Origin: a virus
IMG/VR virus record: IMGVR_UViG_3300024518_002752
Span: 1 to 49,218 of that record
DNA: 49,218 nt
Direction: 5' to 3' (one strand)
A model generated the notes under the pieces. The model saw only the letters and a program-made list of their open reading frames with translations. It had not been told where the DNA came from and ran no database searches. Every line of letters starts with the position of its first letter. Positions within the stretch are counted from its first letter, which is position 1. Below are positions 4,062 to 46,267 of this stretch, in pieces. Made by a program: the position numbers and the translations under genes.

Positions 4062-4262
4062 ATGAACCAAAACAGACTTGGCTCTATACATGAAAGGCTC
4101 TTGCATTTAATCCGCTACCTTGTGGAGGAACAAAACTTCACCGCCATCCAGGTCGTGGCTATCCTTGAGAAGCCATGGCACTGGCAAGACGAAGCAGATG
4201 CCATCTGGGACAACAGGAATCTGCAGTCCCTTATCGAAGGAGAAGACCATGTTAACGCTTGA
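4062..4262 (+). CDS. Hypothetical protein, first gene of recombination operon
   Basis: A 66-aa protein with no domain I recognise. AGGAAAG precedes the ATG at 4062. It is predicted mostly helical and slightly acidic, with three Trp residues near the C-terminus (including WHWQ and IWDN). It overlaps the start of the exonuclease gene by 14 bases, so translation is probably coupled. As first gene of an early recombination operon it could be an accessory to the exonuclease/annealing pair; this is inference from position. Confidence 0.7.
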   Translation: MNQNRLGSIHERLLHLIRYLVEEQNFTAIQVVAILEKPWHWQDEADAIWDNRNLQSLIEGEDHVNA

Positions 4263-5253
4263 ACAACTACAACGTCGTCAGTCTTGTCTCACGGCCAGCT
4301 CGGTAGCTTCGGTGCTAGGCGTCAGTAAGTGGAGTACTGGCTTTGATGTCTACGCCAGCAAGACAAAGCCTCTTGAGGTAGACGAGCCTAGCCCTGCGCA
4401 GCTGCGTGGCCACATCTTTGAAGCAGCCATCATTGACTTCTTCGAGCGTGAACTGAGAGCAGTGAACCCAGACTTGGAGTTTGAGCTTGTCTTCCCTTCG
4501 GAACAGGAGACTCCCTTCACTCTAGAGGACTGGCGCGGGGCAACCCCTGACTGTCTGCTGGTGCTCGATGACGAGGTCATCCTCATCGACGCTAAGACTC
4601 AGCGCGAACGCAGAGACTGGGGCGACACCAACTTCAACTACAAGGGGCTTGAGACTGGTACTCGTGAGACTACCATCCCTCTCGACTACGACTGCCAGAT
4701 GCGTTGGAGCATGCCTATCGTGCAGGACAGGATGGACAAACCTTGTCATCGAAGCCTGCTCGTTGTCTTCTTTACGTTGACCGATACCTTCGAGGTCTTC
4801 AGCGTAGACCGCAACGCCTGCGTTGAAGATCAGATGGTGGAGAACTGTCGCAACTGGTGGTGGAAGCACATCGTTGCAGGGGTAGAGCCTGAGCTTGACC
4901 ACTCCACCTCAGCCTGCGCAGCTGTAAAGGAACGCTTCCCTCCGCGTGCAGACGGCTCTCCTTCGGGTGAACTACGTCACGATGACGGCACTGGCAAGAC
5001 GATGGTCGAGCAGATCAAGGCTATCAAGAAGCAGAAGAAGATGATTGAGGAGGAGCTCAAGACTTTGGAGAACCGACTCAAGACATACATCGGAGACGAT
5101 GATGGCATCATTGGCGACGGCTTCAAGGCAACCTGGAAACCACAGAAGGGCCGAGCAGCCATCGACATGAAGCGCCTGAAGACAGACCACCCCGAGATTA
5201 TTTCAACCTACACCAAACAAGAAGACTTCTACAAAGTTCTTCGCATTCGCTAA
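4249..5253 (+). CDS. YqaJ-type viral recombinase exonuclease
   Basis: A 334-aa protein; the ATG at 4249 follows AAGGAGAAG. The N-terminal two thirds is a PD-(D/E)XK nuclease of the YqaJ/lambda-Exo family: opening LTASSVASVLGVS at 14-26, E58 in HIFEAA, D101 in TPD, D114 and K116 in IDAK, and Q150 in the YDCQ helix. Residues about 253-282 form a Lys/Glu-rich coiled coil, a common tail in phage YqaJ proteins. It should degrade one strand from double-strand ends to expose single strands. The next gene looks like the matching annealing protein, the standard two-component phage recombination arrangement. Confidence 0.9.
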   Translation: MLTLEQLQRRQSCLTASSVASVLGVSKWSTGFDVYASKTKPLEVDEPSPAQLRGHIFEAAIIDFFERELRAVNPDLEFELVFPSEQETPFTLEDWRGATPDCLLVLDDEVILIDAKTQRERRDWGDTNFNYKGLETGTRETTIPLDYDCQMRWSMPIVQDRMDKPCHRSLLVVFFTLTDTFEVFSVDRNACVEDQMVENCRNWWWKHIVAGVEPELDHSTSACAAVKERFPPRADGSPSGELRHDDGTGKTMVEQIKAIKKQKKMIEEELKTLENRLKTYIGDDDGIIGDGFKATWKPQKGRAAIDMKRLKTDHPEIISTYTKQEDFYKVLRIR

Positions 5254-5263
5254 GGAGATCATT

Positions 5264-5974
5264 ATGTCAGCTATTATTAAAGGTGTCGTAAACATTCACG
5301 GTAACGACTACTTCACGGTGGCACGCCGAGTCTTTGACTTTCGTCAGCAGCATCCAGCCTCAGACGGCTGGGGAATCCAGACGGAGATCATCTCCATCGA
5401 CGCTGACCGTGTAGTCATGAAGGCATCTATCGTTTCCCCCACGGGTCAAGTGGTAGGAACAGGCTTTGCCGAAGAGGTAAGGAGTTCCTCTAAGATCAAT
5501 CGCACGTCAGCTCTTGAGAACTGTGAGACCAGTTGCATCGGTCGCGCAGTCTTCGCAGCTACAGCGGTCGGCTTTGAGGGCAGCACTCAATACGCCTCTG
5601 CAGACGAGGTGGTTAATGCTGTAGCCCAGCAAAACGCCGCGCCTACAGTGGAGTCGCTGACTAGTAGGACGCAAGGGCTTCGCGCTGCTCCTGCTCCCAC
5701 CAACGGCTCTGCTCCTGCATGCCCGAAGTGCGGCGATGAGATGTGGGACAACAGCGACAAGCGCCGAGCAGGAGGCAAGGCTCCCGCGTACAAGTGCAAG
5801 AAGAACAAGTGGGACAGCAAGACCAAGAAGAGCGTGGGTTGCGAAGGCATTGTTTGGGATGCCGTCGCGACAGCTGTTCCCTTCCAGCCTGAAAGGGATG
5901 ACGAAGTCACCGTGCGTGATATAATCGAGCCCGATCGGTTTGAAGACTACGAGGCGGAAGAGATTCCTTTCTAG
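5264..5974 (+). CDS. Probable ssDNA-annealing/recombination protein with zinc ribbon and SSB-like C-terminal tip
   Basis: A 236-aa protein. Residues 1-115 carry the TGFAEE...INRTSALENCETSCIGRA pattern that I associate with Rad52/Erf/DdrA-like phage annealing proteins; this identification is by pattern, not search. Residues 153-193 form a Cys4 zinc ribbon (C153, C156, C178, C193). The last residues, EDYEAEEIPF, closely resemble the acidic tip that ends bacterial SSB (DDDIPF in E. coli) and recruits host repair proteins. It follows the YqaJ exonuclease by ten bases with AAGGAG before the ATG, as expected for an exonuclease-annealase pair. The exact annealing family is uncertain. Confidence 0.72.
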   Translation: MSAIIKGVVNIHGNDYFTVARRVFDFRQQHPASDGWGIQTEIISIDADRVVMKASIVSPTGQVVGTGFAEEVRSSSKINRTSALENCETSCIGRAVFAATAVGFEGSTQYASADEVVNAVAQQNAAPTVESLTSRTQGLRAAPAPTNGSAPACPKCGDEMWDNSDKRRAGGKAPAYKCKKNKWDSKTKKSVGCEGIVWDAVATAVPFQPERDDEVTVRDIIEPDRFEDYEAEEIPF

Positions 5975-45617: not shown

Positions 45618-45939
45618 AGTACATTTGGTTGGGCGCTTAGGTGCTGACCCAGAACTGAAAGGAGAAGACGGAAGTGTGTGTCGCCTTCGACTTGCTACCG
45701 ACGAGCGGCGCAAGGTTGACGGGGAGTGGCAGACGGTTCCCGAATGGCACACCGTCATCGTCTTTGGCAATCAAGGCCGCAGCTGCGCGGAGCATCTAAA
45801 GAAGGGGCGCTTCATCGCGGTCATCGGAAGGCTCGCCACTAACAAGTGGGAGGACAAAAGCGGTAACACTCGGCACGATGTTCAAGTGCTAGCAAACGAA
45901 ATCGAATGGCTCGGAGGTGGTGACCATGGCGGCAATTAA
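45610..45939 (+). CDS. ssb: Single-stranded DNA-binding protein, OB fold, no acidic tip
   Basis: A 109-aa protein with the standard SSB start (MNKVHLVGRLGADPELK) and strand order: RLRLATDER, EWHTVIVFGNQGRSCAEHLKKGRFIAVIGRLATNKWEDKSGNTRHDVQVLANEIEWLGG. It covers the OB domain only; the C-terminus ends GGGDHGGN and lacks the acidic DDDIPF-type tip. It protects ssDNA during phage replication. Host protein recruitment through a tip would need to come from another protein, and the annealing protein carries one. Confidence 0.93.
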   Translation: MNKVHLVGRLGADPELKGEDGSVCRLRLATDERRKVDGEWQTVPEWHTVIVFGNQGRSCAEHLKKGRFIAVIGRLATNKWEDKSGNTRHDVQVLANEIEWLGGGDHGGN

Positions 45940-46267
45940 GATAGACATCAAAGCCATCGAACTACTCAAGGCTTATCAAGGTTGCACTACGTCTGCGCAA
46001 AAGCAGGCTCTCTGCGATAGCCTCGTGCAGTGTACTGCTGACTTAGCACTGGAACCCTTGTGGAAGAAGTGCCGAATGCAAGCCGGGCTCATGAAGTTTG
46101 AGCGTGAGAACCGTCGCTGTGTCTACCCAGACGGGAGACCTATCCCTCTCCTAGCATGGCGCGTCGAGGGAGAAGCAGAGCACACGGCGCACAAGGTTCT
46201 TGTTGACGAAGCCAAGCGGCTTTATAGTCGTGAAGTAACTAAGCTGGGGCTAACTCATGAACGATGA
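45926..46267 (+). CDS. Hypothetical protein after SSB
   Basis: A 113-aa protein; the ATG at 45926 follows GGAGG and is better than the GTG at 45917. It overlaps SSB by 14 bases. Four Cys are spaced through the first 55 residues. Helical and basic in the second half. Not recognised. Confidence 0.68.
   Translation: MAAIKIDIKAIELLKAYQGCTTSAQKQALCDSLVQCTADLALEPLWKKCRMQAGLMKFERENRRCVYPDGRPIPLLAWRVEGEAEHTAHKVLVDEAKRLYSREVTKLGLTHER

Follow-up and report, generated by a model that had tools for sequence, protein, structure and literature searches.

The window analysed here is a stretch of 49,218 nucleotides, positions 1 to 49,218 of the IMG/VR virus record IMGVR_UViG_3300024518_002752. It carries a recombination exonuclease gene, an annealase gene that starts 10 bases after the exonuclease gene ends, and an SSB gene (Table 1). 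A sequence-only reading of this DNA had claimed that the annealase ends almost like a bacterial SSB, and the window translation bears this out: the protein terminates as FEDYEAEEIPF, directly at the stop codon. The acidic tail of SSB (SSB-Ct, DDDIPF) normally recruits other DNA-repair proteins. The annealase has the features that define such a tail, with acidic residues and I/L/V-P-F at the extreme C-terminus after a flexible linker.

Table 1. Features of the window discussed in the text
Feature	Position	Strand	Evidence or remark
RecE/YqaJ-like recombination exonuclease, directly preceding the annealase	4249..5253	+	phrog_434, E 1e-50; Pfam YqaJ, 1.5e-6
Annealase, Rad52-fold, with SSB-like acidic tip, 236 aa	5264..5974	+	ATG start; phrog_11717, E 8e-29
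Conserved annealase core, ~residues 9-115, motif INRTSALENCETSCIGRAV	5288..5608	+	alignments A1, A2, A5
Zinc-ribbon-like stretch between annealase core and tail, C153/C156/C178/C193	5720..5842	+	sequence; weak, sub-threshold Pfam zinc-ribbon matches
Low-confidence, probably flexible linker, annealase residues 194-230	5843..5953	+	low pLDDT beyond residue 200
AEEIPF tip, acidic SSB-Ct-like ending of the annealase	5954..5971	+	SEDIPF in locus L002, FDSVPF in locus L003
SSB, OB domain only, without linker or tip, 109 aa	45610..45939	+	Pfam SSB (PF00436), E 7e-25; A8 alignment

The family to which the annealase belongs, phrog_11717, is unnamed and has no functional annotation. Neither Pfam nor NCBIfam returned a match to the curated annealase families (Rad52, RecT, Erf, Sak), and sequence searches of solved structures gave nothing useful, so a comparison of folds was needed and membership of the Rad52 superfamily is claimed by fold and not by a named sequence family. 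We modelled the annealase with AlphaFold from 70 aligned sequences of the window and the loci, and pLDDT was >90 across the core (~residues 20-100). The best Foldseek match to this model was yeast Mgm101 (probability 1.00, E 1.3e-3). With VIA-align, the best matches were human RAD52 rings (Z 8.7-8.8, 83-85 residues, rmsd 3.0), and we consider the fold evidence moderate because dsRBD chains trail RAD52 by less than 1 Z unit. A relative in MW202512, also located next to an exonuclease, is annotated as 'mgM101-like'. By predicted fold and gene context, the ORF is an annealase, and we infer the annealing activity.

For the C-terminal part of the annealase, a search of phage genomes found no source. 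The four-cysteine zinc-ribbon-like stretch is also present in L003, and the C-termini of L017 and L019 contain cysteines as well. In two other tipped annealases (L007:9995-10849 and L145:4304-4966), the C-terminal segment weakly matches Pfam QSregVF_b, with an FGKHKG motif.

The window SSB is the only PF00436 match in the whole record, and its residues 1-100 cover positions 1-103/104 of the model, which is nearly full length. It has the OB-fold domain of a bacterial-type SSB and lacks both the linker and the acidic C-terminal tip, ending EWLGGGDHGGN right after the OB domain. The absence of a tip on the phage SSB, also part of the sequence-only reading, withstood closer inspection: none of the three downstream frames contains a hidden tip past the stop, and no frameshift masking one was found. 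Two of the closest relatives of this SSB (L291 and L292) end in EEEENIPF and KFDDIPF. An ORF at 45917-46267 begins within the last codons of the SSB gene (overlap 45917-45939) and may relate to the missing tail.

To follow the tip among relatives, we used 251 loci with a complete annealase, retrieved from viral contigs and phage records, many of which are fragments. Most of these annealases are tipless, and 16 carry the tip. The tipped ones fall into ~5 groups: the window with L002, L003, and L004; L007; L086 with L145; L165; and the L103 type (n = 8). The tree of the annealase core needs 5 changes of tip state, of which well-supported branches force only 2. In the L103 clade, the annealase has the complete body of its tipless relatives followed by a proline-rich linker and the tip, together 30-40 residues; in this addition the linker drifts, whereas the tip stays conserved.

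When the annealase is tipless, the tip usually sits on a small protein nearby (~76-183 aa), often the product of the next gene. Read to the letter, the expectation that homologues would keep the tip on the annealase failed for most of them, yet the tip is mostly found on the nearby partner, as relocation predicts. A scan of genome contigs found tipless relatives, nearly all without a nearby tip, and a final scan with L003 as query added no tipped annealase. As a control we took P22-type Erf, a phage annealase of another family. None of the Erf proteins in the loci examined has a tip, and nearly all of these loci –many of them near-copies– have one tipped ORF nearby. These phages usually encode one tip-bearing protein close to the annealase, as in the family studied here, with the difference that its bearer is a small protein other than the annealase.

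We followed four partner families: canonical SSB, A3, a DUF736-like family (Y), and Z. The last three were called SSB-like from their architecture (small domain, linker, tip) and gene position instead of their fold, because the structure predicted for the small A3 partner was of too low quality to use (pLDDT 58, best VIA Z 2.5). When the profile of Y was compared with those of A3 and SSB, the alignments were limited to short stretches. Among the loci with an identifiable partner, 11 had the tip on the annealase only, 122 on the partner only, 19 on neither, and 0 on both. In other words, 122 of the 141 phages with a tipless annealase and an identifiable partner have a tipped partner, and the tipless partners of the 11 tipped annealases are orthologs of tipped partners. 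No SSB-like partner turned up for the annealases of L165 and L003.

Three partner families, unrelated to one another, show the swap: A3, Y, and that of the window's SSB. In A3, eight tipped annealases are followed by a tipless partner (ending GGGGSAW, ATQPWEV, or SSWTSLA), and 11 tipless annealases are followed by a homologous tipped one. In Y, the members of L007 and L145, where the annealase is tipped, stop just past the core domain, and 44 tipped copies adjoin tipless annealases. The 19 loci with the tip on neither protein include several near-misses of the regular expression by which the tip was scored (NDYPF, ESDIPFN, ELPFN), and the pelagiphage-type ones have a different ending.

In these pelagiphage-type relatives (L044:5972-6244, L099:3781-4050, L111:10518-10787, and L396:10518-10790), the annealase is tipless and the tail of the DUF736-like partner is F-x-P-x-x-LEA and not DDIPF. 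This conserved ending is perhaps another docking tip, suited to their hosts. Separately, a protein annotated as SSB (L043:7658-8095) contains LDDDIPF followed by 36 more residues, which places the tip inside the deposited ORF, maybe through an annotation or frame problem.

When annealases were clustered at 70% identity, the partner was tipless in 5 of 5 tipped cluster states and tipped in 23 of 36 tipless ones (Fisher p = 0.011), with the caveat that these clusters are not fully independent because two of the tipped ones (L259 and L195) share one clade. Well-supported branches gave 2 tree-aware independent pairs and the best tree gave 4, too few for significance; all pairs with differing partners went in the expected direction and none in the opposite one.

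In these comparisons of predicted proteins, the tip is carried by one of the two recombination proteins, and no locus seen has it on both. They show that the tip is present, that the partner is tipless where the annealase is tipped, and that the switch is recurrent. This pattern strongly supports the relocation from SSB to annealase proposed by the sequence-only reading, and in the unrooted tree that direction is the parsimonious one.

Acidic C-termini are common, and the tip could be a chance ending with no docking role. We regard this as very improbable. Outside annealases and partner proteins, ~10 of 11,984 ORFs of at least 60 aa carry such an ending (~1 in 1000), whereas among annealases it occurs exactly at the stop codon in ~5 separate groups out of 72 clusters. 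Among the ORFs of at least 40 aa in the 49 kb window, the annealase alone has an acidic [ILVMFY]P[FY] ending, and the full records of the window, L003 (37 kb), and L007 (48 kb) hold no second tip. A chance ending would also not be expected to exclude a tip on the partner, or to stay conserved while the linker next to it changes.

The annealase tip is a recurrent variation on a known recruiting device, new on an annealase. It resembles the bacterial SSB-Ct in that a protein associated with ssDNA carries, behind a flexible linker, a terminal acidic-hydrophobic peptide that ends in PF; it differs in that the bearer is a Rad52-fold annealase and the phage SSB has none. We found no description of an annealase with an SSB-type tip in the open-access literature searched. 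One counterpart is man-made: a PriB-SSBc chimera, in which the SSB linker and tip were put on another ssDNA-binding protein, stimulated PriA more than PriB did (PMC8509808). Since this graft boosts PriA above the level reached with PriB, a transplanted tip can plausibly work, and the transfer in the phages studied here would be a natural and recurrent one.

Because SSB tails contact annealases in other phages, a serious rival explanation is that the tip docks inside the annealase/SSB pair and needs no host protein. In HK620, the NDYPPF tail of the SSB is required for binding and stimulation of Sak4 (PMC5928155), and in 80-alpha, Sak uses its C-terminal domain and SSB its last 7 residues to coordinate with one another (PMC11846896). 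Both systems pair a phage annealase with a phage SSB and use an SSB-type acidic tail, but there the tail is on the SSB and contacts the annealase, whereas here it is on the annealase itself. Under this explanation, the SSB tail would load the annealase through the annealase C-terminal domain in phages with a tipped SSB. In swapped phages, the annealase tip would dock either on an adjacent subunit or on the SSB that lacks a tip, and control ring assembly or access to ssDNA. That the tip never leaves this gene pair agrees with it. However, a tail that serves to load the annealase onto SSB should be useless or self-inhibiting once it is on the annealase, and annealases carry the tip in ~5 separate groups with the host-like acidic-[ILV]-P-F ending kept. 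On balance, we find docking within the pair rather unlikely, though worth keeping in view.

The tip could also recruit an enzyme of the phage itself, for example the RecE/YqaJ-like exonuclease, in place of host factors. Coupling of exonuclease and annealase is known from the lambda Red pair, and the tight spacing of the two genes in the window would fit such coupling. We hold it to be improbable as the main role, given how closely the tip resembles the host-type SSB ending.

We therefore favour, as the probable explanation, that the annealase bears a relocated SSB-type docking tip read by SSB-Ct-type pockets, most likely those of host proteins. The tip would be displayed as a docking peptide from annealase-coated ssDNA and would bind the class of pockets that reads the SSB C-terminus. 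Because the ending keeps its host form, the likeliest targets would be host SSB-interacting proteins (RecO, PriA, RecQ, RecJ, and Exo I), possibly together with a phage enzyme. Docking of a host SSB-interacting protein on the annealase tip is plausible from its likeness to the host SSB tip, and resection, annealing, and replication restart would then be handed over from the annealase instead of the SSB. More tentatively, with somewhat less than even confidence, we suggest that the pair needs one SSB-type tip and that its transfer from SSB to annealase has been selected for repeatedly, so that the carrier would be interchangeable and the tip would not. The annealase would become the hub for host repair and replication proteins.

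SSB tips have been studied as a property of SSB, and these natural swaps separate the job of the tip from the coating of ssDNA. They thereby ask directly which target the tip has to contact when phage DNA recombines. Close relatives with the tip on the SSB or on the annealase are ready-made pairs for testing the recruitment of host repair proteins. Moreover, the host range of recombineering annealases probably depends on their contacts with SSB tails, and tip swaps may help in choosing annealases for recombineering.
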